Both the position numbers and the translations under genes were made by a program. From NCBI GenBank assembly GCA_025054715.1, contig JANWYH010000007.1, forward strand, positions 100,138 to 140,276: a DNA stretch of 40,139 nt. Reading direction: 5' to 3'. The DNA comes from Pyrinomonadaceae bacterium (lineage in GTDB: Bacteria; Acidobacteriota; Blastocatellia; Pyrinomonadales; Pyrinomonadaceae). Within the stretch, counting starts at the first letter, position 1. Each line of letters opens with the position of its first letter. This document shows positions 11,011 to 33,423 of this stretch, piece by piece. The notes under the pieces were generated by a model. That model did not search any database, had not been told where the DNA came from, and saw only the letters and a list, made by a program, of their open reading frames with translations.

Positions 11011-11012
11011 AT

Positions 11013-11675: not shown

Positions 11676-11677
11676 CT

Positions 11678-14304: not shown

Positions 14305-14365
14305 TAAATGTCTGACTGCCGACAGTTGAACTAAAACTTTAGGTAAAGTTAAAGTAGTTACACAA
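14303..14365 (-). promoter_or_regulatory. Promoter and shared leader element, copy 2
   Basis: On the minus strand TTGTGT (14360-14365), an 18-base spacer and TAAAGT (14336-14341) occupy the same relative positions as the promoter at 4818-4880. The 39 bases from TAAAGT onward match that copy at 30 positions, including all of AACTGTCGGCA and the TGTC-N8-GACA inverted repeat (14309-14324). The element runs into the start codon of the GT4 gene, so the leader would be only about 25-30 bases. The -35 match is weak (3 of 6), which could mean an activator is needed. The conserved spacing of -10 box and repeat is the main argument that this is functional. Confidence 0.5.
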
Positions 14366-15272
14366 GTTTATTCCTAAAAACTTCTTTAAGTTCTGGCTCT
14401 TTTTGCCTCTCCGCCCAATCACCTTCTATGTTTTTCCTAAGCCAAAACCTTATAAGAAACATTAAGAAACCCACTAAACCCTTTATTTTTGACGGTGCTC
14501 CGAACCAGTAGGCATAGAATCTTCTTCTTAAGTTCTGAGGTTTCTTTAGGTCAATAAACAGAAAATCTATTTTTTCTCTCAAGCATAAGTCTTTGACGCT
14601 CTTTGGAATGGTGTTTGGTTGGACAAACACTTTAGCCCTTGGATCTAATATGAGACGCCATCCCTTTTTGCGAAGTCTGGGAGTATATTCTGCATCACCA
14701 AAATTTGGAAAGCGTCTTGAATCCATAAGTCCTGCTTCTTTTATAGCTTCTGTAGGTATGAGGATACAGTTACCTACTATTAGCTCAACTTCCCATGGTC
14801 GTTCAGGCACACTCCAAACTGTTTGATGTCGCCAATGTCGCCATCCGCCGAGCCATGTTTTCCAAACGGGTGCGACCTGAAACACCTTGTGGGGCTGATC
14901 CCAGAGAAGCAATAATGCCCCGACTATAGATTTTTCGTTTTTTTCAGCAGTTTCTACCATGTATTGCAGGAAGTCTACATCAAAAATTTGATCGTCATTT
15001 ATCATCAAAATGTATTTTGGGTTGTGCTTAAAAGCTGCGTTTATTCCAACGTTCATTCCCTCTGTATACCAAAGATTTCCATCTCCTTTGACTATCTCAA
15101 CCTCGGGGAATTGCTCGGATATTGCTTTTGAGGTTCCGTCGGTTGACCCATCATCAACCACTATGATGTGAACATTTAGACCTTCCTTATTTACTTTTGC
15201 CAAGCTTTTAAGGCAAAGAAGCGTAATGTCACGTCTATTGTGAACAGTTGTAACAACGCAAACTCGGATCAT
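14358..15272 (-). CDS. GT2 family glycosyltransferase, rhamnosyltransferase-like
   Basis: Inverting GT-A glycosyltransferase of 304 residues. VVDDGSTDGT at 38-47 is the nucleotide site; GDGNLWYTEGMNVGINAAF at 63-81 and INDDQ at 91-95 hold the DXD-equivalent metal site. NFGDAEYTPRLRKKGWRLI supplies the C-terminal acidic cluster. The GNLWYTEGMN wording is frequent in rhamnosyl- and hexosyltransferases of capsule and O-antigen loci. A hydrophobic stretch near 262-276 may bind the membrane. It is ATGA-coupled to the dehydrogenase gene and is the last gene of the first sub-operon. Confidence 0.86.
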   Translation of the reverse strand: MIRVCVVTTVHNRRDITLLCLKSLAKVNKEGLNVHIIVVDDGSTDGTSKAISEQFPEVEIVKGDGNLWYTEGMNVGINAAFKHNPKYILMINDDQIFDVDFLQYMVETAEKNEKSIVGALLLLWDQPHKVFQVAPVWKTWLGGWRHWRHQTVWSVPERPWEVELIVGNCILIPTEAIKEAGLMDSRRFPNFGDAEYTPRLRKKGWRLILDPRAKVFVQPNTIPKSVKDLCLREKIDFLFIDLKKPQNLRRRFYAYWFGAPSKIKGLVGFLMFLIRFWLRKNIEGDWAERQKEPELKEVFRNKLV

Positions 15273-16660
15273 GATTTAACAGCTTCAGAAGGTTTTTCCT
15301 TTGTTCCAAGCCAGATTTGCTTCAACCTCTTTGTGTTTGCTGTATCATCATTGCTTTTTCCGAAAGCAATGTAATTGATATGATCTTCGTTTTCGAGTTT
15401 CTTCATCATTCTCCAGAAGTCTATGACGGTAACTTTTCGATACTGATTCTTGAAGTCTTCGGCTTCGAGTTTTTCAAATTCTGGATGAGGTGTCGCTATT
15501 AAAACTGCTTCTGCTTGGTTGAGACATTCTTTTAGGTTATCGAGCACTACTATATGTCCATGAAGTTCCTGAAGTGCCATTTCTCCTGCCAAAGGATCAT
15601 ACCCGATGACTCTGTAACCTGCTTTCGACAGAGCTTCGGCTATATAAAGAGACTGAGATTCTTCCGTAACATGAGAAAATGGTTTGTAGGCAAGTCCGAG
15701 TATGGCAACGGTGCTGTTCGGTCTGAGAATTTCTTTTAGCTTTTCGGTTACTCTGTTAGGAATCGAACGGTTCATCGAGTCTGTTACTTCGGCAAGCTTC
15801 GCCTGAACGCCTAGCTGTTTCGCGATGAACGAAAGAGCTATGTTATCCCTGGGAAAGCATGGTCCACCGTAACCTAACCCGCCTTTTAAGTATTTGTGAC
15901 CTATGCGACTATCGAGACCTAAAGCTCTTGTGACTACATCGACATCTCCGCCGGGGATGTTCTCGCATATTTCTGCCAGCATGTTTGCAAAGGTTATTTT
16001 TGTTGTCACAAAAGTGTTGACGGCTATTTTCGTAAGCTCAGCCATTTCAATACTCATGCGGGCTGAAGGAGCTTTGTTTTCGACTACCATTGCATAGAGT
16101 TTTTCTAATTCGCTACCGCTTCTTTCGTCAAGTTCTCCTATAAGGGTGAAGTCCGGGTTCAAGAAATTTTCTATCACGCTTCCCAAGGCTATAAATTCCG
16201 GACTATAACAAACGCCAAAGTCTTTTCCCGCTTTCTTGCCGGATTCTTTTTCGAGTATAGGAATAAGAACCTGACGAGTTGAGCCCGGAAGGACCGTGCT
16301 TGTTAGCACTACGTTGTGGTAGTTTTTCTTTTTTGCCAGTGCTCGCCCGATTTCTTTGTATGCCCATGATACGTATTGTAGGGAGAAAGCGCCTCGCTCA
16401 TCACTCGGTGTCGGCACTATGACAAAGGATATATCTGAGTTCAGTACCGCTTCTTCGTGGCTTAGAGTTGCTTTTAGTCTATCTCTGTTAGCCTTTATCA
16501 TTTCATTAAGGCCGGTTTCTTGAACAGGAGCACTTGCGTTATTTATTGCATCAACTACCTTGTGACTTATGTCAACTCCTATTACCTTAAATCCTCGATG
16601 AGCAAAGCAAGCTGCCATGCTTGCTCCTAACTTCCCTAATCCTATAACAGATATTTGCAT
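15269..16660 (-). CDS. UDP-glucose/GDP-mannose dehydrogenase family enzyme
   Basis: NAD-dependent, four-electron nucleotide-sugar 6-dehydrogenase of 463 residues. GLGKLG at 7-12 binds NAD. Residues K211 and N215 in AELTKIAVNTF and the nucleophile C268 in GGLGYGGPCFPRD are the conserved catalytic set. The C-terminal NAD/UDP-binding domain contains VAILGLAYKPFSHVTEES. The product is a nucleotide-linked uronic acid; UDP-glucose, UDP-HexNAc and GDP-mannose are all possible substrates. The sequence PVQETGLNEMI at 45-55 is common to UDP-glucose dehydrogenases. It has a GGAG ribosome site. The polymer is therefore probably acidic. Confidence 0.9.
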   Translation of the reverse strand: MQISVIGLGKLGASMAACFAHRGFKVIGVDISHKVVDAINNASAPVQETGLNEMIKANRDRLKATLSHEEAVLNSDISFVIVPTPSDERGAFSLQYVSWAYKEIGRALAKKKNYHNVVLTSTVLPGSTRQVLIPILEKESGKKAGKDFGVCYSPEFIALGSVIENFLNPDFTLIGELDERSGSELEKLYAMVVENKAPSARMSIEMAELTKIAVNTFVTTKITFANMLAEICENIPGGDVDVVTRALGLDSRIGHKYLKGGLGYGGPCFPRDNIALSFIAKQLGVQAKLAEVTDSMNRSIPNRVTEKLKEILRPNSTVAILGLAYKPFSHVTEESQSLYIAEALSKAGYRVIGYDPLAGEMALQELHGHIVVLDNLKECLNQAEAVLIATPHPEFEKLEAEDFKNQYRKVTVIDFWRMMKKLENEDHINYIAFGKSNDDTANTKRLKQIWLGTKEKPSEAVKS

Positions 16661-16672
16661 ATTTTACTCCAC

Positions 16673-17503
16673 TCAAATTTTCTTGGCTGTAACACATAGG
16701 TGCCAGCCAATTGATTTTTCTAGTTTTCTAAAAAACTTTTCTGGCATCCAGCGCCAATACCAATTCTTTTCGTACTCGTATTTTACGTACTTTGAGATTT
16801 TATACGGGAAAATATGTTCGACATGCTTTTCTTCTATTATAAAGCCATCACCTATGAGCTCTTCGACCGTTTTTTTTGTGTATGTATAGGTGACTGGACA
16901 TCCTGTTTGAGCTTCTGAGTGTTTTGCTATTATCTCGTCAAGCTTCCAGAATTTGCCTTTTTCTTTGACTAAAATCCAGAAGACTTTCCACGAGTATCGG
17001 TTATAGACCATTATTTTCAACGTGCTTCCGCTTTTTACGTAAAAGTTTCTAATCTGCTCGATTATCTTTTCAGGATGTGGAGAGTGGTGAATTACTCCAA
17101 ACGAGTAAACTAGGTCAAAGGGTTCTGCAGGAACAAATTCGGAAAGCCTTTCAGCATCAGCTTCATAGAATGATATTCTGTCTTGAAGACCAAAGACCTC
17201 TGCTCTCTTGCGGGCTATTTTTAAGGATTCCGTGGAGATATCAACCGCTGTAACGAAAGCGCCGGCACGAGCAAAGTTTATCGTGTCAGTTCCTATACCG
17301 CAACCTATCTCAAGAACCCTTTTGCCTTTCCATTTTTCGAATTGTGCAAACTTGGGTATATGCGGCTCTACAAAGTATTTTCGCCACTCGACCTGATCAA
17401 AATACTCTTTTGTTCCAATTTGCGCTGGTGAGTGCCGTATGTTACAAGGTCTAGAATCCCAGAAGCTTTTTACTTTTTCAATTGGAACCTCTCTGAAATT
17501 CAT
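16673..17503 (-). CDS. Class I SAM-dependent methyltransferase
   Basis: A 276-residue methyltransferase with motif [13 protein letters not shown] at 63-74, TAVDIS at 85-90 and [20 protein letters not shown] further on. An N-terminal block ([15 protein letters not shown]) precedes the fold and is seen in a group of methyltransferases found in glycan loci. It overlaps the GDP-mannose epimerase gene as ATGA and lies 12 bases before the dehydrogenase gene. Methylation of a sugar in the repeat unit is the likely role, inferred from context only. Confidence 0.82.
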
Positions 17504-18492
17504 TTTGCTGTGGATAATACCTTTTGAGATTCTAACTTTTTTCTAACCTGTTCCTCAATCCATTGATAGGTTACTCGCAAACCTTCTTCAAGCGAGACTT
17601 GAGGCTCCCAACCCAAGACTTCTCTAAGCCTTGTGTTATCAGAATTGCGGCCTCTTACGCCTTGGGGGCCATTCACGTGTTTCTTAATTATCTTTATGCC
17701 GGCTATTTCTGCAATTATATCTGCTAGCTGGTTTATTGTCACCATCCGATCCTGCCCTAAGTTTAATGGTTCTGGGTAGTCTGATTGCATTAACCTGTAT
17801 ATACCCTCGATACAATCGCTAATGTAACAAAAGGAGCGAGTTTGTTCTCCATCACCCCAGATTTCTACTTCCGGATTGCCTGTAAGTTTCGCTATGGCTA
17901 TTTTTCTGCATAAAGCTGCTGGTGCTTTTTCACGACCGCCTTCCCATGTTCCTTTTTCACCAAAAATGTTATGAAATCTAACTATTCGGGTTTGCATTCC
18001 GTATTCTTCTCTGTAGTGGATGCAGAGCCTTTCGCTTATGAGTTTTTCCCATCCGTAAGCGTCTTGGGGCATCGCCGGGTATGCATCTTCTTCTTTAAGG
18101 GGTCTGATATTTGCTTCCCGTTGCAGTTCCTCGTTGTAAACACAAGCTGAGCTAGTAAAAAGATACCGTTTTACGCCATTTATTCTGGAAGCTTCAAGTG
18201 TGTGAAAGTTTATCAGCGCATTGTTGTAAAGAATCTGTGCATGGTGTGATGAAATAAAACCCATTCCACCCATGTCAGCCGCGAGTGCATAAACTTCATC
18301 TACATTGCGAGTTGCCTGCAGACAGTTATCCCAGCGCCTCAAGTCAAGAATCTCAAATTCATCTGCATCCGTTTCCGAAAACTCTGGATACTTTATATCA
18401 ACTCCGCGAACCCAATATCCGCGTTTTTTCAGGTAGCTAACAAGGTGGCTTCCTATAAAGCCTCCGGCTCCGGTAACTAAGACTCTCTTCAT
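17500..18492 (-). CDS. gme: GDP-mannose 3,5-epimerase, plant-like
   Basis: Extended SDR protein of 330 residues closely resembling plant GDP-D-mannose 3,5-epimerase. GAGGFIG is at 8-14. Runs shared with the plant enzyme include [48 protein letters not shown] and [12 protein letters not shown]. The plant catalytic residues C145, Y174, K178 and K217 map to C117, Y146, K150 and K189 here, all at the same offset of 28. It should make GDP-L-galactose or GDP-L-gulose from GDP-mannose. No vitamin C genes are near; the neighbours (Wzc, dehydrogenase, transferases) point to L-Gal or L-Gul as a polymer building block. Confidence 0.9.
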
Positions 18493-20939
18493 TCCTCTCC
18501 TTCCTGTTGGTAGTATGAGCTGTAGTAATAGGTTTGGTAGTAATAGTTTTCTTGTGAATTAACGTTTACGTTGTTTAACACGACGCCAAAAATCTTTGAC
18601 CCTACTTCTTGCAAAATCTGTCTTGAGCGGCGGACTATTTGTCTGGAGCTTTTACCTGCATGTATTACCAAGATCACCCCGTCCACCATAGAAGCAATCA
18701 GCACTCCATCCGTAAAAGAAGCTATCGGTGGAGAGTCTATAACTACATGTGTGAACTCCTTTTGGAAAATTGACATAAGATGTGTCATCTGAAGCGACCC
18801 AATCAGTTCTGCTGGATTGGGTGGTATTGGGCCTGAAGGTAGTAGATAAAGTTTAGTCTTTGGGTCTTGGCAGATTGCTGCTAATGCTTTCTCTTCTTTT
18901 GTTTCGCTTGACAAAAGCGTGCTAAGTCCATAGTTGTTAGGGATTTTGAAGATGCTGTGTATTCTTGGACGACGCATGTCTGCATCTATGATAAGAACTT
19001 TCGCTCCAGTTTGAGCAAGGCTTGTAGCCGTATTCACTGCTGTTGTTGTTTTTCCTTCCGCAGGAAGGCTTGAGGTAACAAGCAAAGACTTGGGAGCGTG
19101 TCCTGCCACCGAGAGAAGTATTGATGTTCTTAGCTGGCGGTAAGCCTCTGAAAGCGATGATTTTGAATCGTTATGGACTAGCAACTCAATGCCTGTTTTT
19201 GCAGGTAATTCGTTTTCTTTCGATCCAACTAAAAGAAGCTTTCTTTTTTGTGTCGAGTTCATTGATGGAATAGCTGCAAGAACTGGTAAGCCTAAATAGC
19301 TTTCTACGTCTTCTACTGTTTTTACGGTATCATCCAGATATTCTAGAAACAGCGATAGGCCTACGCCGAAGATACCTGATAAGATCATGACTAGTAAAAC
19401 GGTTGTTAGTCTTCTTGGGCTTATTGGTGTGTCTGGGGGTATGGCTGCATCAACTATGCTTATGTTGTTATCAGTGCCTTGGGCTATCACGTCGTTTGAG
19501 CTTTGTTGCTCGATTAGATTTTTTAGGAATCCGCGGTTTGTTTCTATGTTTTGCTCAAGTAGTTTTATATCGATCGCAGCTCGGTTTTCGCCTTCTGCCT
19601 TTTCGTATTGTTCTTCAAAGGCTCGTCTTATTTTTTCTTCTTGTGCTTTTGCCTGCTCGTATCGGGTTTGCAGGTTCGTAAGGATTTCTTTTGCTGTTCT
19701 GCTTCTGTATTTTTCCAATTCCTCCCTGTTTTTTTCTTGAGCTTTTTCAATAGCTCCTTTAAGTGCTTCTATCTTTCGGTTTATTTCTTGAACCTCTGGG
19801 GCTGACTCTTGATACTCAACTAAAAGTTTTGCTTTTTCTGCTTCCAGATCAGCGATTCTTTTGGCGGTTTCGTTGCTTAGTGCTCGCATGTCGTTTTCGC
19901 GTTCGGTGATGAATCTTTGCAGTTTTTCTTCTGCGAGGGCGCGTAGCCTTTCAGGCTGATCTTTTACGGCGTTGTATTCGGCTTCTGCTGTTTTCCTTAT
20001 GTTTTCAGCCTCCAAAAGCTGCTTGTTTAGTCCGGCCAAGCGGTCAATAACTATTGTTTGTCCTTCGTCCTTTTTTAGAATTCCTGCACTATTTTTCAGT
20101 TCTGCTAGGCGCATTTCGTCTCTTTTTATTTCACTTTGCAGAGCGGCAATTCTTTCCGATAGAAAATCGTTTGTTTTCTTGCTGGTTCCTGTTCTTTTCT
20201 CTTGATTTTGCCTAACAAAAACTTCTGCTATTGCGTTTGTTATAAGCGCAGCTAGTTCTGGGTTTGTGTGTTGAAATCTTATTTCTATGAGCCGTGTGTC
20301 TTTGAAAGTTGCTCTCGATTCTCTAACAGGTTCAACTGCTAGGTTTTTCTTTAGAATTTCAACGAATGGGGCAAGTCTAATTGCTTCTTGCATTTCTTCT
20401 ATGCTTGTTAGATTAAATCCTCGGCTTTCCTCTAGTTCTATTTTTTTTCTTGGCTCTTCTTTTGCAAGTCCGATTGATTTCAAGAAGGCTCGCCATGCAG
20501 AGGCTTCGCTTTTGTTCCTCTCTTCTTGAAATTCTTTGTTTGCTTCTAGGTTTGCTTCTTTTACTACTCTTCTTAGGAGGCTATCGCTGGTTAGTAGCTG
20601 TAGCTGTGTGTTGAAATAGGCAGGGTCTGGATTCGTTACTACTGTAGGTTTATCCGTTACTTGAAGTTGAGGATTTCCTTGTTCTAAGTCAACTTGTACT
20701 CTAGCTTTTGCTTCGTAGATGTTTGGTTTTCTAGCTACGTAAATTGCCGTTAAGATTGTTGACAAGATTACAATTCCTGCTATCAGCCATAGACGTTTTC
20801 TTATGGCGTTCCAGTATTCGAGTAGTCTGATACTTCCTTCGGGCGTTCCTCTGTAGCTCGGGTAGTAGGGGGGTGTTCTTGGCTCTAGTTCTTCCTTTTC
20901 GCTTTTAACTGCAGTTATTATTTCTCGGCTTTCTTTCAT
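18489..20939 (-). CDS. wzc: Wzc-like polysaccharide co-polymerase with BY-kinase domain
   Basis: An 816-residue inner-membrane protein controlling chain length and export. A Wzz domain starts at about 38, with TM1 at 50-68, long coiled coil in the periplasm (roughly 255-450), a Pro-rich PPDTPISPRR at 501-510 and TM2 at 512-533. The cytoplasmic kinase has Walker A SSLPAEGKTT at 623-632, Walker A' VLIIDADMRRP at 648-658 and Walker B VVIDSPP at 732-738. The tail carries eight tyrosines between 799 and 810, the autophosphorylation cluster of this kinase family. The fused membrane-kinase form is the Gram-negative arrangement. It lies three bases after the OPX gene, its expected outer-membrane partner. 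Confidence 0.95.
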   Translation of the reverse strand: MKESREIITAVKSEKEELEPRTPPYYPSYRGTPEGSIRLLEYWNAIRKRLWLIAGIVILSTILTAIYVARKPNIYEAKARVQVDLEQGNPQLQVTDKPTVVTNPDPAYFNTQLQLLTSDSLLRRVVKEANLEANKEFQEERNKSEASAWRAFLKSIGLAKEEPRKKIELEESRGFNLTSIEEMQEAIRLAPFVEILKKNLAVEPVRESRATFKDTRLIEIRFQHTNPELAALITNAIAEVFVRQNQEKRTGTSKKTNDFLSERIAALQSEIKRDEMRLAELKNSAGILKKDEGQTIVIDRLAGLNKQLLEAENIRKTAEAEYNAVKDQPERLRALAEEKLQRFITERENDMRALSNETAKRIADLEAEKAKLLVEYQESAPEVQEINRKIEALKGAIEKAQEKNREELEKYRSRTAKEILTNLQTRYEQAKAQEEKIRRAFEEQYEKAEGENRAAIDIKLLEQNIETNRGFLKNLIEQQSSNDVIAQGTDNNISIVDAAIPPDTPISPRRLTTVLLVMILSGIFGVGLSLFLEYLDDTVKTVEDVESYLGLPVLAAIPSMNSTQKRKLLLVGSKENELPAKTGIELLVHNDSKSSLSEAYRQLRTSILLSVAGHAPKSLLVTSSLPAEGKTTTAVNTATSLAQTGAKVLIIDADMRRPRIHSIFKIPNNYGLSTLLSSETKEEKALAAICQDPKTKLYLLPSGPIPPNPAELIGSLQMTHLMSIFQKEFTHVVIDSPPIASFTDGVLIASMVDGVILVIHAGKSSRQIVRRSRQILQEVGSKIFGVVLNNVNVNSQENYYYQTYYYSSYYQQEGEE

Positions 20940-20942
20940 AGA

Positions 20943-21866
20943 CTACTTCACGAAAATTGGTAAGTTTGCTAATCCACCGGTTAGTGATTTTCCTATTCCA
21001 TTCAGTATGGATTGTGTCTTGTCTTCTGACACTGCGATTATGTCGTTTGGTTGCAGGAGTGGGTCAGTAACCTTGCCGTTGTCAATGTCTTTAAGACTGA
21101 AGACTTGTTCTTCCCATTCCGCTTGACCTGGTTTTTGTCTTATTAATCTTATTTTGTCTTTGTTGCTTGCAGGGGCAAAGCCTTCTGCCGATGCTATTGC
21201 TTGTCTTAGCGTCAAAGCTCGGTTTAGTTTTATTGCTCCGGGTTTTCTTACATTTCCGTAGACATACACTACGTCGGCATCTAGAACAGATACAATGTCG
21301 CCTGGTTCCATCCATATGTTTTCTTTCGCTTGAAGAACATCCCTTACGTTGAATTGATAGAGTGTGTAGTTTTCTCTTGTTTCCTGTGCTTTTCCGTCAC
21401 AGGTTGCAGTGCTTCCGGCTCTTGCTACTATGAGCTTAGTTCCTGCTTTTTCTGTGTCTGGACCGCCTGCAAAGGACAGTAGTTCCAACAGCCTAACTCT
21501 TCGGTTTATATAGAACAAACCCGGTCTTTCTACTGCTCCTATTACAGCGAAGTATTGCGATCTTTGCTCAACTACTCTTACATTTACAAATGGGTTCTTC
21601 AGGTATGTTTTGTACTTTTCAGTGATTTCAGCGGCTAGCTCTCGTTCTGTTTTGCAGACGGCTCTGATGGGTGTATCTATTCTGAAGAGCTTTATGGTTC
21701 CGTCTGGTGAGATGTTTACTAACTGAGTGAGCTCTGGGTGTCTGAAGACGGTTATTTCTAGGGTATCCTGGTATCCGATCTTGTAGCTTTCCTCTTTACT
21801 TTCTTGTGCTACTGTGATGCTAACTGCAAACGCTACTATTAGTAGGTGAAACGTCCTCAATTTCAT
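20943..21866 (-). CDS. Outer-membrane polysaccharide export protein (OPX, Wza-related)
   Basis: Exported protein of 307 residues. A signal peptide (MKLRTFHLLIVAFAVSITVAQ) is followed by the poly-export domain (YKIGYQDTLEITVFRHPEL and NPFVNVRVVE). Two SLBB domains follow, the first around FAVIGAVERPGLFYI and the second around YVYGNVRKPGAIKL. There is no lipobox cysteine, unlike E. coli Wza. An in-frame TTG start at 21893 exists, but the ATG at 21866 is preferred because AGAGGA lies six bases upstream. It is the first gene of the glycan run and diverges from mutS, so the main promoter of the locus should lie in 21867-21981; no clear -35/-10 pair could be picked there. Confidence 0.9.
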   Translation of the reverse strand: MKLRTFHLLIVAFAVSITVAQESKEESYKIGYQDTLEITVFRHPELTQLVNISPDGTIKLFRIDTPIRAVCKTERELAAEITEKYKTYLKNPFVNVRVVEQRSQYFAVIGAVERPGLFYINRRVRLLELLSFAGGPDTEKAGTKLIVARAGSTATCDGKAQETRENYTLYQFNVRDVLQAKENIWMEPGDIVSVLDADVVYVYGNVRKPGAIKLNRALTLRQAIASAEGFAPASNKDKIRLIRQKPGQAEWEEQVFSLKDIDNGKVTDPLLQPNDIIAVSEDKTQSILNGIGKSLTGGLANLPIFVK

Positions 21867-21981
21867 TCGTATCCTCTTTTTTCCGAAGATCAACGTTTCA
21901 AGATAGATATGATAACAGAGTTTTCTAAGTCTGTCATTTTTCAGTTTGATGTTTTCTGGCTTTTACTTGATAATTTCTTTT

Positions 21982-24588
21982 ATGCAGAGTTTAACGCCGA
22001 TGTTAAGGCAGTATGCTGAGATAAAGAAAAAGTTTCCCGGCATGCTGTTGTTTTTTCGTCTCGGTGATTTCTACGAGCTTTTTGGCGAAGACGCTGTGAT
22101 AGGTTCTAGAGAACTTAATATAACGCTTACCTCACGTATGAAGGATTCTTTGAATCCTGTTCCTATGTGCGGAGTTCCTCATCATTCTGTTTCCAGCTAT
22201 TTGTCGAAGCTTGTCAAAAGAGGCTATAAGGTAGCGATTTGCGAGCAGGTTGAGCAGCCATCTAAAAACAAAAAAATCGTTCGTAGAGAGGTTGTGAGAG
22301 TAATTACTCCGGGGACGGCTTTTGACTATGCTGAGGCTCATGAAAATCTTTGGTTGGCTTCTGTATGTGCTAGCGGTGACAGAGTGGGACTTTCCTTTCT
22401 TGATCTTTCTACCGGTGATTTTTTAGCAGCTGAATTCGTCGGCGGAGACTCTTGGCAAAAGGCTTCTAGTGAGGTGGAATCCTTTTCTCCTAAAGAGTTA
22501 CTCTTTCCCGAGTCAATAGAGCCCGTTGTTAGGAGCTTGTTTTCTGGTGAAAGGTTTTCCTTTATAAGGGCTTTCACTCCACTGAATGACTTTGATTTTG
22601 ATTACGGGGATTGTGCTTCACTCTTGAAGAGCCACTTTAAGGTTTTTGATTTGCGTCCCTTTGAGCTGGAAGATAAGGTAGAGGCAGTAAGATCTTCCGG
22701 GGCAGTCCTCCGTTATGTCCAGCAGACTCAGCGGACATTAGCTGAGCATGTCTGTGAAGTAAGGTATTTTGCTGATAGGGACTTTATGATCCTTGATCCT
22801 GTTACCTTGCGGAACCTTGAGGTGGTTGAAAGTCTCGGTCAAAACGTTCGCCGTTCACTTTTTCATGTTGTAAATGAGACTGTCACTGGAATGGGTTCTC
22901 GTCTTTTGAGATCGTGGCTTTTGCGGCCTTGTTTAAGCGTTTCCGAAATAAAAAACCGGCTCGATGCTGTTGAAGAACTTACCGATTCCCTAATTAGGTC
23001 TGAGTTGAGAAACTCTCTTAGTAAAATCTCCGATCTTGAGCGCTTGGTTGGGAAGCTTAACCTTGGTACTATAACCCCGAGAGAACTTCGTTCTTTGGCT
23101 CTCTCTCTTCGGGAGATTCCAAATTTAGTAAAAACGTTATCGGACGCGCAATCACCTCTCATTTCCTACCTAGTAAAAAGTATTTTTCCTATGGAGCATA
23201 TACAAAAGCTCATTTTTGACGCAATAGTAGAAAATCCTCCGTCAAGCCTCTCTGAAGGAAATGTTATAAGACAAGGATTTAACGAAGAACTAGACGAACT
23301 TAGAAAGATATCAATTAACGCAAAGCAAATAATAGCTTCTTTCGAAGATGAAGAGAGAAAGCGCACCGGCATCAACAGTCTTAAGGTAAAATTCAATAAT
23401 GTCTTCGGTTATTTCATAGAAGTTTCGAAAGCAAACCTAAGTCGTGTACCTTCAGACTACGAGAGAAAACAAACGTTGGTAAACGCCGAGCGTTTTACTA
23501 CTAGGAAACTTAAAGAGTGGGAAGAGAAAGTTCTAAGTGCTGAAGAAAGAATAAAAGAGCTAGAAGCTGCTATCTTTTCTGAAGTGCGCAATATCGTTCA
23601 AAAAGAAACGAAGAAGTTGCAAATTACAGCACGTTCTATCGCCACGATTGACTCGCTTCAGGCCCTGGCCGAAGTTGCCATGCGCCGCAATTACTCAAAA
23701 CCCCTTATTCATGAGTCGGACGAATTACAAATAATCGGTGGTAGACACCCAGTAGTCGAAGCCTTTTTGCAAGACCCTTTCGTGCCAAACTCTATCTACA
23801 TGAATAACTCTACGGACAGGCTCCTGATAATAACAGGTCCCAATATGGGCGGAAAATCAACTCTTTTAAGACAAGTAGCGCTCATACAAATTCTCGCACA
23901 AATCGGCTCCTTCGTTCCAGCGTCTTCAGCAAAACTGCCAGTGGTTGACCGTATCTGGACACGTGTTGGAGCCTCCGATGATATAACATCTGGACGATCC
24001 ACTTTCATGGTTGAGATGACAGAAACAGCTACTATCCTTCATAATGCCACACCAAAAAGCCTCGTGTTGCTCGATGAAATCGGTCGTGGGACTTCTACTT
24101 TCGATGGTCTTTCAATAGCCTGGGCCATAGCAGAATACCTTCACAATTCAACTGAACATTCAGCTAAAACCCTTTTTGCCACACACTACCACGAACTAAC
24201 AGAACTTGCCGATCTGCTGCCAGGAGCTAAAAATTACCGGATATCGGCCATCGAAAAAGATGGTAACGTCGTTTTTCTCCATAAACTTGAAAAAGGCAAA
24301 GCCTCAAAATCGTATGGAATTGCTGTAGCTCAGCTCGCCGGCTTGCCACAAAAGGTCATACAGAGAGCACGTGAAGTCCTTGAAAGGCTTGAAAGGTATG
24401 AGTTAGCAGTTTTTGCAAATGAGAAGGGCTTGAAAAAAGCAGCTTCAAAAAGAGTCGTTCAACAGGCAACTCTTTTCTCTCTAATAAATGATAAGATCAT
24501 CGAGGAAATTAGAAGCACAGATTTTGATTCGTTATCAGACGTAGAATTAAGGCAGTTTGTAAAAAAAATAAAAGAGAAAATCGTCTAG
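21982..24588 (+). CDS. mutS: DNA mismatch repair protein MutS
   Basis: Full-length MutS of 868 residues. The mismatch-reading motif GDFYELF is at 28-34. The ATPase domain has GPNMGGKST near 619-627, LVLLDEIGRGTSTFDG near 694-709 and TLFATHYHELTEL after it. In-frame TTG (21946) and ATG (21949) codons lie upstream, but conservation begins at SLTPMLRQYAEIKKKFPG, so the ATG at 21982 is chosen although no Shine-Dalgarno sequence is evident. MutL is not in the window. Codon use changes abruptly near residue 390 (about 23150): T-ending codons before, A/C-ending codons after, with an intact frame. See findings. Confidence 0.95.
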   Translation: MQSLTPMLRQYAEIKKKFPGMLLFFRLGDFYELFGEDAVIGSRELNITLTSRMKDSLNPVPMCGVPHHSVSSYLSKLVKRGYKVAICEQVEQPSKNKKIVRREVVRVITPGTAFDYAEAHENLWLASVCASGDRVGLSFLDLSTGDFLAAEFVGGDSWQKASSEVESFSPKELLFPESIEPVVRSLFSGERFSFIRAFTPLNDFDFDYGDCASLLKSHFKVFDLRPFELEDKVEAVRSSGAVLRYVQQTQRTLAEHVCEVRYFADRDFMILDPVTLRNLEVVESLGQNVRRSLFHVVNETVTGMGSRLLRSWLLRPCLSVSEIKNRLDAVEELTDSLIRSELRNSLSKISDLERLVGKLNLGTITPRELRSLALSLREIPNLVKTLSDAQSPLISYLVKSIFPMEHIQKLIFDAIVENPPSSLSEGNVIRQGFNEELDELRKISINAKQIIASFEDEERKRTGINSLKVKFNNVFGYFIEVSKANLSRVPSDYERKQTLVNAERFTTRKLKEWEEKVLSAEERIKELEAAIFSEVRNIVQKETKKLQITARSIATIDSLQALAEVAMRRNYSKPLIHESDELQIIGGRHPVVEAFLQDPFVPNSIYMNNSTDRLLIITGPNMGGKSTLLRQVALIQILAQIGSFVPASSAKLPVVDRIWTRVGASDDITSGRSTFMVEMTETATILHNATPKSLVLLDEIGRGTSTFDGLSIAWAIAEYLHNSTEHSAKTLFATHYHELTELADLLPGAKNYRISAIEKDGNVVFLHKLEKGKASKSYGIAVAQLAGLPQKVIQRAREVLERLERYELAVFANEKGLKKAASKRVVQQATLFSLINDKIIEEIRSTDFDSLSDVELRQFVKKIKEKIV

Positions 24589-24607
24589 AAAGTACGCTAA
24601 GTGCTTT
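24589..24607 (+). terminator. Possible weak terminator after mutS
   Basis: Immediately after the mutS stop codon AAAGTAC and GTGCTTT can pair as a seven-base stem with one U-G wobble and the five-base loop GCTAA. The following bases (TGTGCTTTATTT) are T-rich but not a clean T-run, so termination would be modest at best. Confidence 0.3.
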
Positions 24608-24664
24608 GTGCTTTATTTCTCTATGGCTTACTTTGCTGGCCCCTCTATGGGAAAGTTTTCCTGT

Positions 24665-24686
24665 GCGCTCGGCAAAAGCTGAGCGC
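24665..24686. repeat. Hairpin, 9-bp arms with AAAA loop
   Basis: GCGCTCGGC and GCTGAGCGC flank AAAA; eight pairs are Watson-Crick and one is G-T. It is the strongest stem in the gene-free stretch and much more GC-rich than its surroundings. No T-run follows on either strand, so it is not a standard intrinsic terminator. Confidence 0.6.
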
Positions 24687-24689
24687 TGC

Positions 24690-24715
24690 GCTAATTCACA
24701 ATAATCTGAATTAGC
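24690..24715. repeat. Perfect 9-bp inverted repeat
   Basis: GCTAATTCA and TGAATTAGC pair perfectly around an eight-base loop. It begins three bases after the preceding hairpin, so the two would stack as tandem stems in an RNA or cruciform. Confidence 0.6.
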
Positions 24716-24773
24716 CCAGTAAGCTCTTCGTTCTTTGAATGAAAGTAGTCGTGAAGCTTTACGGGCAGATAGA

Positions 24774-24848
24774 TGGGCTTTCTTTTCTCTTTTGTAGAAA
24801 ATCCAAAGGTCAAAGTATCTCGCTTTCTTTGGGTTTTCCAAAAGCCCA
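24774..24848. repeat. Nested imperfect palindrome of 75 bp
   Basis: Outer arms TGGGCTTT (24774-24781) and AAAGCCCA (24841-24848) pair perfectly. Inner arms GAAAATCCAAAG (24797-24808) and CTTTGGGTTTTC (24827-24838) pair at 11 of 12 positions. The nesting suggests a long structured element rather than chance. Confidence 0.55.
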
Positions 24849-24865
24849 CACTTGCTATCAAGCTA

Positions 24866-24882
24866 TCAAGTAAGAAACTTGA
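24866..24882. repeat. Short inverted repeat
   Basis: TCAAGT and ACTTGA flank the five-base spacer AAGAA. Short enough to arise by chance; noted because it follows directly on the larger palindrome. Confidence 0.3.
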
Positions 24883-25435
24883 CTTCTTTAAACACCGCCC
24901 TTATTTCCCCTTCGGTAGCGTAGTCCACAGGTCTTTCCGCCTGTCTTTGAAGATTGTTCTTAGTCTGATGGTCCGAAACTCTTGCTAAATGATGCACCTA
25001 TTTTCCTGCGTTGGCTTTTTGTCTTCTTCGTGGACTATGATAGGCTGGTTGGAAGTTGGTCGCCCTTTACGTACCCTGCTTTAAATCATCACCAAGCGGT
25101 CTTGTATGAGACGCCTTTTTCCCTTGCGTAGTCTGATACCTTCGTAGTGAATAATATGCAATAAATAACCAAAATTGCTAATAGACTAAATGATTAGTTT
25201 CCAAGACTTGCTCCAACTACTTACTCAATACCGACATCAGGATGAAGTTAGCAGTGCAATATGGCCGTTGACGAAAACAAAGGTTCGACGGTCTGCAGAA
25301 CGTCAATGTCTGGCTAAACACTCTGGGTTGCATTCGATAGCAAGATTGGTGACCTCAAAGTGCCGCTCTAGCAAACGAAAAGTGAGGCGTATGTTTTGTT
25401 TTCTTTAACAAAGTTTTCCGTAAGTCCTCCAAAGC

Positions 25436-25468
25436 CGTTTTTGAGTGCTAAACTCATTCTCAAAAACG
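25436..25468. repeat. Perfect 10-bp inverted repeat
   Basis: CGTTTTTGAG and CTCAAAAACG pair perfectly across a 13-base spacer. A third related piece, TTTTGAG, follows at 25479-25485 and could compete for pairing with the second arm, giving alternative folds. Confidence 0.5.
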
Positions 25469-25699
25469 CCCGAGAGCCTTTTGAGAAAAATCGGAAAAGG
25501 ACGTAGCCTCCGTATTTGGCAGCATCTGTCTCGCCTCTTACAGTGCATGCCGCTTCCTGCAACTAATTTCCTAAAATTTTCGCGTCCATTTCTTATCCTC
25601 TACGAAATCATACCTAATCCTGACGGTAAAATCTTAATATCTATCGTTGGCTAACCGCTATCGCCAACATCTGCTTCTCCGTGTTTTAAGATAATTTTT

Positions 25700-25727
25700 G
25701 CAAATGATAACATTCATTATGTTATGG
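25700..25727 (+). other. dif-like sequence (candidate XerCD site)
   Basis: The stretch can be laid out as an 11-base left arm ending ATAA, the six-base spacer CATTCA and an 11-base right arm starting TTATGTTA. The inner parts match the E. coli dif layout ATAA-N6-TTATGTTA, and the outer parts do not. It is also an inverted repeat, ATAACAT-N5-ATGTTAT (25707-25725), that overlaps the start codon of the next gene, so an operator for that gene is an equally valid reading. Confidence 0.3.
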
Positions 25728-26323
25728 ACAAAATAAGCCATGGCGAGATATTGAAGAAAATTTGGAAGCACCTTCAGATGGGTGCAGAAAAACGAAATCA
25801 TCCTTTTCATACACCCGTCTTGGCTACAGTATCGGAAAATAACTTACCATCAGCAAGAATTGTAGTTCTAAGGCGCTTCATAAAAGATGAAAGAGCACTT
25901 ATATTCCACTCTCACATAGGCGCGCCAAAAATCAAGGAAATTCAAAACAACCCTATCGTTAGTTTCGTATTCTACCACCCACAAGAAAAAATACAGCTAC
26001 GCGTAACGGCGACTAGCTCTATACACACAAACGACTCCATCGCCGAGGAACAATGGCAACGAACCCAACTACTCTCAAGAAGATGCTATCTAGGCCTTCC
26101 TCCTTCTCAAATATGCGAAAACCCTGCCCCAGGTTTTCCCGAAGAATTCGTCAATAGAAAACCATCAATTGAAGAGACTGTTATCGGACGCAAAAACTTC
26201 GCCGCCATTCTCTCTATAATAAATTCCATAGATTGCCTAGAATTAAATGTCCATGGTCACAGACGATCTCTTTTCCTATGGAGTGAAAACAATTCTTTAC
26301 AAACAAAATGGCTTACGCCTTAA
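25724..26323 (+). CDS. Pyridoxamine 5'-phosphate oxidase-family flavoprotein
   Basis: A 199-residue split-barrel protein. PFHTPVLATVSENNLPSAR followed by VVLRRFIKDERALIFHSHI, the FMN-site stretch GAPKIKEIQ and QLRVTATSSI follow the PNPOx pattern. SRRCYLGLPPSQ in the second half is typical of the PdxH-like subgroup in which the C-terminal dimerisation domain of true PdxH is altered or shorter. FMN binding is likely; whether it oxidises PNP/PMP or another substrate is unclear. No Shine-Dalgarno sequence precedes the ATG, which sits within the dif-like inverted repeat. Its 3' end overlaps that of clpA by 11 bases in convergent orientation. Confidence 0.8.
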   Translation: MDKISHGEILKKIWKHLQMGAEKRNHPFHTPVLATVSENNLPSARIVVLRRFIKDERALIFHSHIGAPKIKEIQNNPIVSFVFYHPQEKIQLRVTATSSIHTNDSIAEEQWQRTQLLSRRCYLGLPPSQICENPAPGFPEEFVNRKPSIEETVIGRKNFAAILSIINSIDCLELNVHGHRRSLFLWSENNSLQTKWLTP

Positions 26324-28712
26324 CATTTTCTTCAAATCTGATACTTAACTCCCCGCCGTCCACAGTAACATACATCTTCCCTCCTTCTGCCAAACTACCA
26401 AAAAGCATCTCTCTTGCAAGTGGTAGCTTCATCTTCTCATGAATAATCCTTGCCATCGGCCTTGCACCATACTTCGGATCAAATCCACGCTCAGCTAACC
26501 AAGTCCTTGCGGCTTCATCCACAACAACCTCTACATTTTTCGCAGCAACTTGTAAATTAACTTCGCGTATGAACTTATCTACTATCATCTGTATTACATC
26601 TAAACTCAGCGGCTTAAAAGCTACCCAAGCATTTAAACGATTCAAAAACTCTGGCGGAAAAGTTCTTTCTATCGCCCCCCTTGCATTTCCCCTTGACTCT
26701 CTTTTACGAAAACCAACCCCTGCAATCGAAAGCTCCCTGGCACCAGCATTCGTTGTCATTATTAAAATAACATTCCTGAAATCTGCTTTCCTACCGTTGT
26801 TATCAGTCAAGATCGCAGAATCCATTACCTGAAGAAGCAAATTAAAAAGATTCGGATGAGCCTTTTCAATTTCATCAAGAAGGAGAACTGAGTGAGGATT
26901 GCGTATTACGGCATCCGTCAAAAGCCCACCTTGATTAAAACCAACGTATCCAGGCGGTGCCCCAATTAACCTCGAAACACTATGAGATTCAGAATACTCA
27001 CTCATATCAAATCTAATGAATTCTACACCTAGAATCCTCGCAAGTTGTTTCGACAACTCTGTCTTACCAACACCAGTAGGACCAGAAAATAGAAAAGAAC
27101 CTATAGGCTTATTCTCACTGTTAAGCCCAGCTCTCGATACTTGAATCGCATCTACAATCTTGTCTATAGCCTCGTCCTGACCGAAAATTACCGCTTTTAG
27201 CTCTTCTCTTAAAGTCTTTAGCTTCTGCTTCTCGTCTGAAACAACACTCCTAGGCGGTATCTTCGCCATCTTAGCTACAACTTCTTCAATCATCGGCACC
27301 GTTATAACCTTCGGACGCTTCTCCTTAGGCATTAGCTTTACAGCTGCCCCCACTTCATCTATCACGTCTATAGCCTTGTCAGGTAAATGCCGATCATTTA
27401 TGTACTTGCCTGCTAATTCAGCCGCTGCCCTTAAAGCTTTATTTGAATATCTTACGTTGTGATACTTCTCGTAAAATCGCCTCAACCCCTTTAAAATCTC
27501 ATAAGTTTCCTCAATGCTAGGCTCACCTACTTCTATCTTCTGAAATCTTCGTATCAAAGCTTTATCACGTTCAAGTGTCTTGTATTCAGCATAAGTAGTT
27601 GCACCTATGCAACGAATCTCGCCAGAGGCTAAAAACGGCTTTAGGATATTCGAAGCATCTAAAGTCGTCCCTGAAGCAGACCCAGCACCTATGACAGTGT
27701 GAATTTCATCAATAAAAAGAATTGCATTACTTTGCTTTTTCAGAGCATTGATAAGAGATTTTAGACGCTGCTCAAAATCGCCCCTATAACGAGTCCCAGC
27801 AACAAGCCCACCCAGATCAAGAGCATAAATCTTTGCCCCTCTTAAAACTTCAGGGACCTCACCCTTCGCTATCCTCAAAGCTAGCCCTTCGGCCAAAGCT
27901 GTCTTCCCTACACCAGGCTCGCCGACATACATCGGATTGTTTTTCTTACGCCTACATAAAACTTGTATAGTTCGCTCTATCTCTACCTCTCTTCCAACGA
28001 TTGGATCAATCTTCCCTTGCCTTGCCTTCTCAACTAACTCCACAGCAAAACTTTCCAAAGGCCCCTCACGTCCTACCTTACCTAGCCTCTCCTCAGCAAA
28101 ATCTTCATCTTCATCGTAAGGAATAAAGTCGTCTAAATCGTGCGGTAAAGGCGGAAAGTCATCCTCAGAATTTAAATCGTCAGAAATATCCTCACCGTAG
28201 AAATCGTCTTCCTCACTATCTCTATTATGCTTGCCTCTCTTTCTAATGCCCTCATCCAAATTGCCTACCTTAGATATGCCATGAGAAATGTAATTTAAAA
28301 TGTCTAACCTTGTAACCCCCTGAGACTTAAGTAAATACACGGCATAAGAGTTCTCGTTTTGAAACATTGCAGCAAGAACATTGCCGCTATCTATTACCTG
28401 TTGTCCACTACTTTCAGCTTGTAAAATTGCATTTTGGACAGTTGATTGGAAAACAGTAGTTAGTTCCGGTAAACTCTGAAACCCCTCAGGCAGTTTCTCC
28501 ATTGCCTCACTAAAGTAATTTTCCAAATCCTTTTTGAGCTCTGAAAGATTCACTCCGCAATTGTAAAGAATATCCCGAGCAACATCGCTTCCGAGCATCG
28601 CATATAGCAAATGCTCCAAAGTTACATACTCGTGCCTACGTGCCATTGCTTCTTCACAGGCAGCGTTCAAGGTCTCCTCTAATTCCTTGCTCAATTTTGT
28701 TTGATTTGACAT
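26313..28712 (-). CDS. clpA: ClpA, ATP-dependent Clp protease unfoldase subunit
   Basis: AAA+ unfoldase of 799 residues that feeds substrates to ClpP. The N-domain (EHLLYAMLG region) is followed by an unusually acidic linker (about 165-207). D1 has Walker A GEPGVGKT at 264-271 and Walker B LFIDEIH at 332-338. D2 has Walker A GPTGVGKT at 544-551 and Walker B LLLDEIEKAH at 610-619. VGF at 666-668 sits where the IGL/IGF ClpP-docking loop lies, so it should still dock ClpP. The start at 28712 is chosen over 28739: it has GGAG eight bases upstream and avoids overlapping clpS. The ClpA identity, rather than ClpC or ClpB, rests on the adjacent clpS and the lack of a middle-domain insertion. clpP is not in the window. 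Confidence 0.94.
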   Translation of the reverse strand: MSNQTKLSKELEETLNAACEEAMARRHEYVTLEHLLYAMLGSDVARDILYNCGVNLSELKKDLENYFSEAMEKLPEGFQSLPELTTVFQSTVQNAILQAESSGQQVIDSGNVLAAMFQNENSYAVYLLKSQGVTRLDILNYISHGISKVGNLDEGIRKRGKHNRDSEEDDFYGEDISDDLNSEDDFPPLPHDLDDFIPYDEDEDFAEERLGKVGREGPLESFAVELVEKARQGKIDPIVGREVEIERTIQVLCRRKKNNPMYVGEPGVGKTALAEGLALRIAKGEVPEVLRGAKIYALDLGGLVAGTRYRGDFEQRLKSLINALKKQSNAILFIDEIHTVIGAGSASGTTLDASNILKPFLASGEIRCIGATTYAEYKTLERDKALIRRFQKIEVGEPSIEETYEILKGLRRFYEKYHNVRYSNKALRAAAELAGKYINDRHLPDKAIDVIDEVGAAVKLMPKEKRPKVITVPMIEEVVAKMAKIPPRSVVSDEKQKLKTLREELKAVIFGQDEAIDKIVDAIQVSRAGLNSENKPIGSFLFSGPTGVGKTELSKQLARILGVEFIRFDMSEYSESHSVSRLIGAPPGYVGFNQGGLLTDAVIRNPHSVLLLDEIEKAHPNLFNLLLQVMDSAILTDNNGRKADFRNVILIMTTNAGARELSIAGVGFRKRESRGNARGAIERTFPPEFLNRLNAWVAFKPLSLDVIQMIVDKFIREVNLQVAAKNVEVVVDEAARTWLAERGFDPKYGARPMARIIHEKMKLPLAREMLFGSLAEGGKMYVTVDGGELSIRFEENVKA

Positions 28713-28717
28713 AAAAC

Positions 28718-29041
28718 TTACTCCGGCTCGACCGTGCAAAGAAGCGGATATTCTCTTGCTCTTGCCAAATTTATAGTTTTCTCCGCCTTCGTTACAGCAA
28801 TCTCATATGGATATACACCTGCTACCCCAAAACCTTCATTATGAACCTTCAACATTATTCTGACAGCATCCTCGTAAGTATGCAAAAAGATATACTGCAA
28901 AATAAATACCACGAAATCCATCGTCGTGTAATCATCATTGTGCAAAATAACCTTGTAAAGCTTCGGCTTTTCGATTTTTTGCTCCCGCTTTGTTGAAACC
29001 TTACGCTCAACAATCACCGACATAACTCTATATTTTGCCAC
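28718..29041 (-). CDS. clpS: ClpS, N-end rule adaptor of ClpA
   Basis: A 107-residue adaptor that delivers proteins with N-terminal destabilising residues to ClpA. The binding-pocket motif LHNDDYTTMDFV and the helix HTYEDAVRIMLKVHNEG are the family hallmarks; the first 27 residues are the flexible charged tail. The start is GTG with AGGAG nine bases upstream. Five bases separate its stop from the clpA start, so the two should be made together. Confidence 0.95.
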   Translation of the reverse strand: MAKYRVMSVIVERKVSTKREQKIEKPKLYKVILHNDDYTTMDFVVFILQYIFLHTYEDAVRIMLKVHNEGFGVAGVYPYEIAVTKAEKTINLARAREYPLLCTVEPE

Positions 29042-29064
29042 AAAAACTTTCTCCTAGTTAACCC

Positions 29065-29829
29065 TTACTTTGGCAAAAACGCAACTATTCGCAAAGGTGC
29101 TCCGCTTCCCCCTTTTATCTTCATAGGAAGCGCTACAACCCAAAAGCCTCTTACAGGTAGTCTCTCAAGCCCAGCTACGTTTTCAAAGGCAGGCACATTC
29201 TCGCTCATCAAGGCAACGTGAGCTTCAAAGTTTTTTGAGCTACCAACATCAATACTGGCTGTGTCTATACCAACAGCTCCAATGCGACGCTCGCGCACCA
29301 GCCACTGCGCAGCTTCACGACTTAATCCAGGAAAATGCCTTTCACCAAATTCATCCATCCCCATATAACTCTTTCTATCGCCCCAATAACGACCATAACC
29401 CGTCTGTATCAAGACTATCGCTCCATCAGGAATCTTGCCATTTGCCTTTTCCCAATTCTCCAAGTCATCAACACTAACCTTATAATCTCCTCTAGCCCTA
29501 TCAGAAACATCTATCTTAACACCTTCTCCAATCAAACGGTTAAGTGGTAGCTGCGAAACCGTCTGTCTCCCTTCAGCAAAATGAATCGGCGCATCTAAAT
29601 GAGTTCCGCCATGCTCAGCCGTGCAGAATCTATACGCTGAATAATAATAACCTCCTTGAGTCCGTCCTTCGTGTATAACCTCTTTCTTGAAACTATCAGT
29701 TTCATTCCAATAAATCGTATCCTCGGAAAAGTCATGGCTTAAGTCAATCCACTCTCCTTTGAGAAGATTCGGCTCGCGAGCGCATGAACAAAACATCAAC
29801 AATAAGCTCAAGCAAACGACCTTTCTCAT
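29065..29829 (-). CDS. Cyclase/kynurenine-formamidase-like family lipoprotein
   Basis: A 254-residue protein of the cyclase family (PF04199-type metal hydrolases). The metal-binding motif HGGTHLDAPIHF is at 73-84, preceded by IDLSHDFSEDTIYW and followed by VLIQTGYGRYW and AVGIDTASID. The N-terminus MRKVVCLSLLLMFCSC has a lipobox-like end (C14 or C16), so it is probably a lipoprotein in the periplasm, unusual for formamidases of tryptophan breakdown. Substrate unknown. Its gene lies 23 bases before clpS and 12 after the upstream gene, within the long minus-strand run. Confidence 0.85.
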   Translation of the reverse strand: MRKVVCLSLLLMFCSCAREPNLLKGEWIDLSHDFSEDTIYWNETDSFKKEVIHEGRTQGGYYYSAYRFCTAEHGGTHLDAPIHFAEGRQTVSQLPLNRLIGEGVKIDVSDRARGDYKVSVDDLENWEKANGKIPDGAIVLIQTGYGRYWGDRKSYMGMDEFGERHFPGLSREAAQWLVRERRIGAVGIDTASIDVGSSKNFEAHVALMSENVPAFENVAGLERLPVRGFWVVALPMKIKGGSGAPLRIVAFLPK

Positions 29830-29841
29830 TTTCCCCCTCCC

Positions 29842-30468
29842 TCAATCAAAGACATATCTGATAAAAATATTCATTCTATCTTCCATCACCTCATACCTAA
29901 TAGCTAGTGCTTTCATCTGAACCTGCCGCTCTTTTACTGAAAAATTAAAAGACAATCTGTCAAGATTTATAACTTCAATAGGGTTGATTTTCCTGTCAAC
30001 CGTCCCTTGAACCATTTTGGCAATTAAACTACCACCAATCCCTCCAGTCCCTGACAAATTAACACTTAAAACCTTTACACGAGCAAAAATAGAACGTTTT
30101 TCCGCTCCATACTCCAGGTTAATCAAAGACTCAGCAACCCCAGAAAAATCCAAACAACCTAAAAAAGGAAAGTTATAACTACCTGTAAAGGCTATTAAAG
30201 CTAAGATTCTCTTTTCACGAAATTGAATCTCAGACTGCCGATCACCGATCCTTTTTCGCAGCTTTACTGTTTCTTTGCAGTCAAAACTTGCCTTAATAAA
30301 ACCTTCTTCCCTAAACTCAGCAATCGAAAATTCGAGCTCTTCTTTGAAAACGGAATCCAGAAGTAAATTAAAGAATCGTTCGTCTAAACTTACTAAAATT
30401 TCTCCTTCTTGCGCTCTTGATGAGAAAAACGCGAAAAGAATACAAAATACTAATGTCAGTCTTCTCAT
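29842..30468 (-). CDS. Exported protein of unknown function
   Basis: A 208-residue protein I do not recognise. A signal peptide (MRRLTLVFCILFAFFSSRAQ) precedes a mixed alpha/beta sequence with alternating hydrophobic strands and two cysteines (in FDCKET and LGCLDF) that could form a disulphide. The pattern, ending in KALAIRYEVMEDRMNIFIRY, resembles lipid-binding or bridge-like periplasmic beta proteins, but this is only an impression. Its start overlaps the upstream TPR lipoprotein stop as ATGA, so the two are likely functional partners. Confidence 0.75.
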   Translation of the reverse strand: MRRLTLVFCILFAFFSSRAQEGEILVSLDERFFNLLLDSVFKEELEFSIAEFREEGFIKASFDCKETVKLRKRIGDRQSEIQFREKRILALIAFTGSYNFPFLGCLDFSGVAESLINLEYGAEKRSIFARVKVLSVNLSGTGGIGGSLIAKMVQGTVDRKINPIEVINLDRLSFNFSVKERQVQMKALAIRYEVMEDRMNIFIRYVFD

Positions 30469-30959
30469 TTCCTTCCATTAAATGGCAATGGTTCTGGTTC
30501 CTCTCCTTCCTTAGGAGGCTCCCGACGAAGCGAAGCAAATATGCTCAGAATTCTATCGTGCATCGCTCGTGCCTCGTTGTCATCAGGCTTTAACTTCAAA
30601 CCCTTTCGGAAATCCCCTAAAGCCGCCCTATACTGTGCCGCCTCTGTTAGCGCAAATGCTCGCTTAAAGTAAGCTTCTGCTAGCCTTTGTTTTGCCTGAC
30701 TGTCCTTCGGATTCTTTTCATACTCTTTTCTCGCCTTTTCAATCTCAGCAGTCATCTCCCTAACATCTATAGGACGAGCCATCGGGCTTTCCGTGCTGTT
30801 TTGCCTTACAGAATCTTCCTTTCGACTTGACACTATCAGCTCTTCCCTTCTAGACTCATCAGTTGTAGTCCTTGCCACGCCATTGTTATCAAAATTCGAG
30901 TTACTGGAAAGACTACATGAAAGATTCAAAGTGAAAAGCAAAACTAATAAGACTCTCAT
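30465..30959 (-). CDS. TPR-containing lipoprotein
   Basis: A 164-residue protein with a lipoprotein signal (MRVLLVLLFTLNLSC), a polar spacer and a TPR-like helical pair (QRLAEAYFKRAFALTEAAQY, then RAALGDFRKGLKLKPDDNEA). The end is Pro/Glu-rich. A TTG start at 30986 is possible, but the ATG at 30959 begins directly at the signal peptide and has GAGGA upstream. TPR lipoproteins usually scaffold envelope complexes; the coupled downstream exported protein is the first candidate partner. Confidence 0.8.
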   Translation of the reverse strand: MRVLLVLLFTLNLSCSLSSNSNFDNNGVARTTTDESRREELIVSSRKEDSVRQNSTESPMARPIDVREMTAEIEKARKEYEKNPKDSQAKQRLAEAYFKRAFALTEAAQYRAALGDFRKGLKLKPDDNEARAMHDRILSIFASLRREPPKEGEEPEPLPFNGRK

Positions 30960-30975
30960 AATCTTTTCTTCCTCT

Positions 30976-32856: not shown

Positions 32857-32863
32857 ACAGAAA

Positions 32864-33340: not shown

Positions 33341-33378
33341 AACTTTCAGATTATCAAAACCTATTCCAAACGGAAACT

Positions 33379-33406
33379 TTGAATTTTCACAAAACCATCG
33401 TAAAGT
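33379..33406 (+). promoter_or_regulatory. Putative promoter of the GPx-lpxD pair
   Basis: TTGAAT (33379-33384), a 16-base spacer and TAAAGT (33401-33406) precede a strong TAGGAGG ribosome site. TAAAGT is the same -10-like word used in the two glycan promoters. If correct the leader is about 10 bases. Confidence 0.4.
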
Positions 33407-33423
33407 TATACCTAGGAGGTTTT

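Follow-up and report, generated by a model that had tools for sequence, protein, structure and literature searches.

The stretch of DNA analysed here, referred to as the window, comprises 40,139 nucleotides of a Pyrinomonadaceae bacterium and corresponds to positions 100138-140276 of contig C21 in a draft genome of 2.45 Mb and 23 contigs. An exopolysaccharide (EPS) cluster, encoding glycosyltransferases, epimerases, a flippase, a Wzc-like kinase, and a Wza-like export protein, lies to the left of mutS (Table 1). The mutS frame is open over positions 21946-24588, with 21982 as its likely ATG, and the product scores above the cut-off of two NCBIfam equivalogs (PRK05399, 1034.7 bits; TIGR01070, 982.6 bits), confirming the open frame and MutS identity that had been read earlier from the letters alone. 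A scaffold gap of 97 Ns (C21:100041-100137) adjoins window position 1 directly on the left, and gene order across it matches that of a congener, G001.

Table 1. Features of the window and of the neighbouring part of contig C21 (window positions unless marked C21)
Feature	Position	Strand	Remarks
EPS cluster	1-21893	-	left end beyond window; gene order common to relatives
Lagging-strand-like block, left part of EPS cluster	1-9594		extends left to C21 84.1 kb; contains dif
Leading-strand-like block on + strand, right half of EPS cluster and mutS 5' half	9594-23148		
mutS, intact, 868 aa from likely ATG	21982-24588	+	ORF and NCBIfam matches
Strand-composition change point, leading-like to lagging-like on + strand	23088-23190 (best 23148)		
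Lagging-strand-like right flank, mutS 3' half onward	23150-40139		as expected right of a terminus
Spacer of 1.1 kb lacking long open frames, at synteny break downstream of mutS	24589-25723		not repeated in genome
Predicted dif (XerCD target), 28 bp, GAGTCTGATAATTGGTCTTATGTAAAAG	C21:95851-95878	-	motif match at C21:95856-95878

An earlier note on this DNA had described a flip of the + strand from T-rich to A-rich near position 23150, inside mutS, and all of its hand counts were exact on recount (A 36 and T 71 changing to A 77 and T 36; G 28 and C 50 further on, against G 16 and C 9 in one line before the flip). We measured K, the keto (G+T) fraction at fourfold-degenerate sites of the + strand, which ignores amino-acid content. 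Within mutS, K drops from 0.67 to 0.46 at position 23148, with a log-likelihood ratio of 9.5 that was reached in 0 of 500 permutations. An independent codon model, trained on the leading- and lagging-strand genes of the same genome, placed the boundary at C21:123284/123287, and shifting it to the 3' end of mutS cost 25.5 log units, while shifting it to the 5' end cost ~33. The A/T part of the flip is sharp, with fourfold-site AT skew changing from -0.60 to -0.06, and the T-rich to A-rich change is real. The G/C part held for the line counts but was weak at fourfold sites, where GC skew moved from -0.14 to -0.33, a change within error.

As background we took 259 further long genes from the genome; none matched the contrast in mutS, the largest value among them being 6.9 log units, so the flip is not a product of chance. 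On C21, a stronger within-gene contrast was seen only in an lptF-lptG fusion gene, which holds another terminus switch at 84.1 kb. Nor is the flip an intrinsic property of mutS genes, since the 5'-minus-3' difference in K averaged 0.004 across 106 mutS genes of other genomes (s.d. 0.054, maximum 0.13), compared with +0.22 here. One mutS from a further genome (L039 of G050) also showed a strong jump in K, from 0.21 to 0.51 at 21% of the gene; that gene is distant from its genome's dif-like site.

We then placed the flip in its chromosomal setting by reading C21 whole together with samples of the other contigs, amounting to ~60% of the genome. Within this sample, every contig other than C21 carried a single strand bias apart from C16, on which lagging composition gives way to leading composition at 220-240 kb, where dnaA (oriC) lies, and 0 of 250 5-kb blocks outside C21 had a sign opposite to that of their own contig. 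Switches from leading to lagging were found on C21 only, where there are two. The codon model divides C21 into four segments, with boundaries at 84.14 kb, 109.73 kb, and 123.284 kb (in mutS); from the left, these are leading, lagging, leading, and lagging. Asymmetry peaks beside both switches, and the strength of the leading-like signal in the window between 9594 and 23148 grows towards mutS. Between the switches, composition rises from lagging to leading, as at an origin, over about 101 to 121 kb, and a linear ramp described this rise better than a single step (BIC). The mix of GC and AT skew also differs between the C21 blocks. The earlier note had proposed plotting cumulative skew, and the plot does contain a change point in mutS; however, the main extremum, a maximum of cumulative GC skew, lies near 84 kb, inside the lptF-lptG fusion gene, 39 kb to the left of mutS and outside the window. 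The mutS switch is thus secondary and not the global extremum.

A terminus is also indicated by a candidate dif site. By comparing candidate sites across relatives, we derived the two-arm motif GCGTCTGATAAT-nnnn-ATTATGT, which, with up to 2 mismatches allowed, is found in 53 of 60 family- and class-level genomes, above a reversed-pattern control, and which appears to be newly recognised as a class-wide dif motif in this Acidobacteriota group. This genome contains exactly one match, at C21:95.86 kb, 4.3 kb to the left of the window. As a conserved, single-copy, two-arm motif in the terminus region, the site fits what is expected of dif, as judged from its sequence. The two switches flank it, that at 84.1 kb at a distance of 11.7 kb and that in mutS at 27 kb. 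A different dif-like sequence, ATAACATTCATTATGTTA at window positions 25707-25724, is the only perfect match in the genome and was initially read as dif, but it was dropped in favour of the class-wide motif because it is not conserved and its matches in relatives occur near the control rate.

FtsK with a gamma domain is encoded in the genome. A de novo search for KOPS using skewed octamers returned mainly words driven by base composition, so the E. coli-type octamer GGGNAGGG, putative in this phylum, was used alone. The few sites found point right at C21 78.9, 92.8, and 92.9 kb and left at 105.3, 105.5, 107.0, and 126.3 kb, and thus converge on the predicted dif rather than on mutS. A search for the barrier proteins Tus and RTP found neither in this genome but detected the E. 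coli and B. subtilis controls. Among relatives at family and class level, about 20 genomes, mostly of 3-6 Mb, have mutS and the predicted dif on one contig, 12-103 kb apart, so mutS appears to sit near the terminus as a rule in this group. In relatives G014, G023, and G027, skew around dif is weak, intermixed with gene direction, and too weak to place switches.

On this evidence the window belongs to the replication-terminus region of the Acidobacteriota chromosome (2.45 Mb), and mutS holds the second of two switches. The terminus sign suggested in the earlier note stands for the region, given that C21 carries the only leading-to-lagging switches in the sampled genome, the single dif-like site, and the converging KOPS-like octamers, but not for mutS as the main point, since both the skew extremum and dif lie to the left of the window.

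The earlier note had also raised the possibility of an inversion end point, and a synteny break is indeed present just downstream of mutS, at the spacer. However, the switch falls within an intact gene, and the break nearest to it, at least 1.4 kb further downstream, is excluded by the likelihood as the change point (the cost of 25.5 log units given above). Gene order to the left of and through mutS is, moreover, ancestral: the divergent wza-like/mutS pair is kept in about ten genera and lost in G001. We had considered the EPS-mutS junction a novelty of this lineage because G001 lacks it, but this was ruled out by its presence in G014, G023, and ~8 other genera, which identifies G001 as the lineage that changed. 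G014 and G023 both read lptFG-ahcY-metK-dif-parB-parA-nuclease-dnaE-ssb-EPS cluster-mutS, and the order here differs only in that a 7.8-kb piece (C21 88.05-95.9 kb), with the neighbour of dnaE at one end and dif at the other, is inverted. Because order is conserved across both sites, neither switch coincides with a rearrangement junction. In addition, when inversion histories around a terminus were reasoned through on paper, they always kept the falling, leading-to-lagging order and could not produce the ramp. We therefore regard an inversion ending at mutS or in an adjoining segment as extremely improbable.

The inverted piece (C21:88050-95900), which is inverted relative to G014, G023, and G027, carries dnaE, the nuclease gene, parA, parB, and dif.

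A draft of 23 contigs with a gap of 97 Ns adjoining the window gives some reason to consider a chimeric assembly join inside mutS. Such a join is nonetheless highly unlikely, as mutS contains neither gap nor frameshift, its two halves have the same nearest relative, and the neighbours on its 5' side are ancestral.

Mosaic mutS alleles arising by recombination have been described in enterobacteria, and a mid-gene change of signal resembles them; the earlier note had named a recombinant mutS as one explanation. Unlike in those alleles, the halves here share their nearest relative and the change is one of strand-specific composition. In separate trees of the MutS N- and C-halves, split at the switch, this lineage grouped with G001, the only congener included, with support of 100/100 and 100/99. 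Since both halves group with G001, these trees do not support an origin of mutS outside the genus, and the recombinant explanation finds no backing in that form.

An exchange within the genus is a different matter. The EPS genes at C21 108-122 kb (window ~7950-21893) had G001/outgroup distance ratios of 0.41-0.68, while their neighbours mostly fell at 0.7-0.95, and the ratio changes near 108 kb, where skew also changes. For mutS the ratio was 0.99 overall, with 1.06 and 0.93 for its halves. These values suggest that EPS genes may have been exchanged in this genus and that mutS does not share their closeness. Homologous exchange could thus have brought in a stretch from C21:108-110 kb through, or ending in, mutS from a sister lineage with a differently placed terminus, so that two ancestral terminus positions were joined in one chromosome. 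This would fit a ramp that begins in the EPS locus, a usual site of exchange, the unusual closeness of the 108-122 kb genes to G001, and the unlike skew mixes of the blocks. On the other hand, neither mutS half is unusually close to G001, G001 itself has the opposite, lagging composition over these genes, the linear ramp fits better than one step, and the low ratios could also stem from gene replacement in the outgroups. On balance, we consider this explanation of the mutS flip possible but rather doubtful.

The order in which the blocks acquired their composition was addressed using substitutions at codon positions 1 and 2, which provide a slower clock than fourfold sites and whose direction was assigned from G001 together with two or three outgroups. 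On the branch leading to this lineage, changes to keto on the + strand made up 60% of those in the 108-123.3 kb block and 64% in the left arm, while on the G001 branch they made up 36%, unlike the 60% of the 108-123.3 kb block (p = 4e-8). In the 96-108 kb block the value was 52%, intermediate between both references (p = 0.011 and 0.036), even though the fourfold sites of this block are fully lagging-like. This combination is as expected if the 96-108 kb block was leading first and lagging later; the contrast of slow and fast sites comprises a few hundred substitutions, with key comparisons at p = 0.01 to 0.04. Compared with all relatives examined, MutS residues before the switch have gained amino acids with T/G-rich codons and later residues have not, indicating that the composition pressure on this part of the gene is old. 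These data suggest that the mutS switch may be old and that the block on its left side changed composition afterwards.

The rise between about 101 and 121 kb is not explained by movement of the terminus alone: with fixed gene order and inward forks, any shift of the meeting point gives only a fall from leading to lagging. Accounting for it takes exchange with a lineage having another terminus, a series of events whose traces re-equilibrated unevenly, or replication running outwards. In the last case, forks restarted within 84-123 kb, through over-replication at fork fusion or a cryptic initiation zone, would end at 84.1 and 123.3 kb, so that the dif-holding interval between the lptF-lptG and mutS switches would be replicated largely outwards and origin-like skew would be written into conserved genes. 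The sawtooth of sharp switches at both ends with a gradual rise between them, within conserved gene order, has the appropriate shape, and E. coli mutants are known in which fork fusion sets off over-replication (PMC10331603). However, outward forks would have to outweigh the normal inward forks in every generation, the convergence of the KOPS-like sites on dif is that of an ordinary terminus, the search for barrier proteins came back empty, and in the congener G001 the reversed patch spans only 2.5 kb. We therefore judge outward replication very unlikely, although, if real in the reversed interval, it would bear on how wild-type cells keep termination clean. Exchange or uneven re-equilibration, both ordinary processes, are preferred over it, and the unlike GC/AT skew mixes of the blocks favour several historical events over one smooth mechanism.

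Because the composition changes within an intact gene, and does so in the terminus region only, fork direction best explains the mutS flip, and we infer it as the probable cause. Our main reading, to which we assign a probability of about 0.5, is that the flip marks a former (fossil) or alternative terminus position within a mosaic terminus, rather than a broken or patched gene. To the left of the switch, the + strand would bear the mutation footprint of rightward forks and, to its right, that of leftward forks, with the mutS region having been a long-standing meeting point of forks in this lineage. Later, the block at C21 84.1-109 kb, with dif, would have become lagging in composition, so that two switches of the terminus type remained, at 84.1 kb and in mutS, with the reversed stretch between them; the mutS switch would accordingly be the older of the two. 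The change in the left block may have come about by relocation of the terminus together with local rearrangement or exchange at the EPS locus. Counted against this reading are the 27 kb that separate dif from the mutS switch, the lack of a detected Tus or RTP homologue to account for a sharp meeting point, the weak GC-skew component in mutS, and the small numbers of substitutions.

Skew switches of GC and AT near dif are a known kind of terminus signature (Kono et al., PMC3025954; PMC3317982), and in most bacteria dif and the switch points are close although their positions are not identical (PMC3025954; PMC3317982). The phenomenon described here belongs to this kind, although its doubled, mosaic form is unusual. 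Like known cases, it is a leading-to-lagging change in a region with a single dif and with oriC elsewhere; unlike them, it comprises a pair of sharp switches, each inside a gene and separated by 39 kb, that enclose a reversed ramp and dif. In the Tus-ter fork trap of E. coli, dif lies between the innermost ter sites (PMC10331603), and here dif is also found between two sharp boundaries. In contrast with that system, no homologue of Tus or RTP was found, and the composition between the boundaries is reversed, which is not expected from a trap that admits forks.

Two switches inside intact genes, in a genome of very regular asymmetry, provide a rare high-resolution record of a moving fork meeting point, and this record comes from a bacterium with no known fork trap. 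The putative class-wide dif motif and the terminus-proximal mutS make the question testable in relatives. The terminus region also holds a second chromosomal parA-parB pair (C21:94239-95847), which directly adjoins dif here and likewise in G014, G023, and G027. The usual parB and a parS-like site are located near dnaA (C16:219-220 kb), and a partition system beside the terminus was unexpected.
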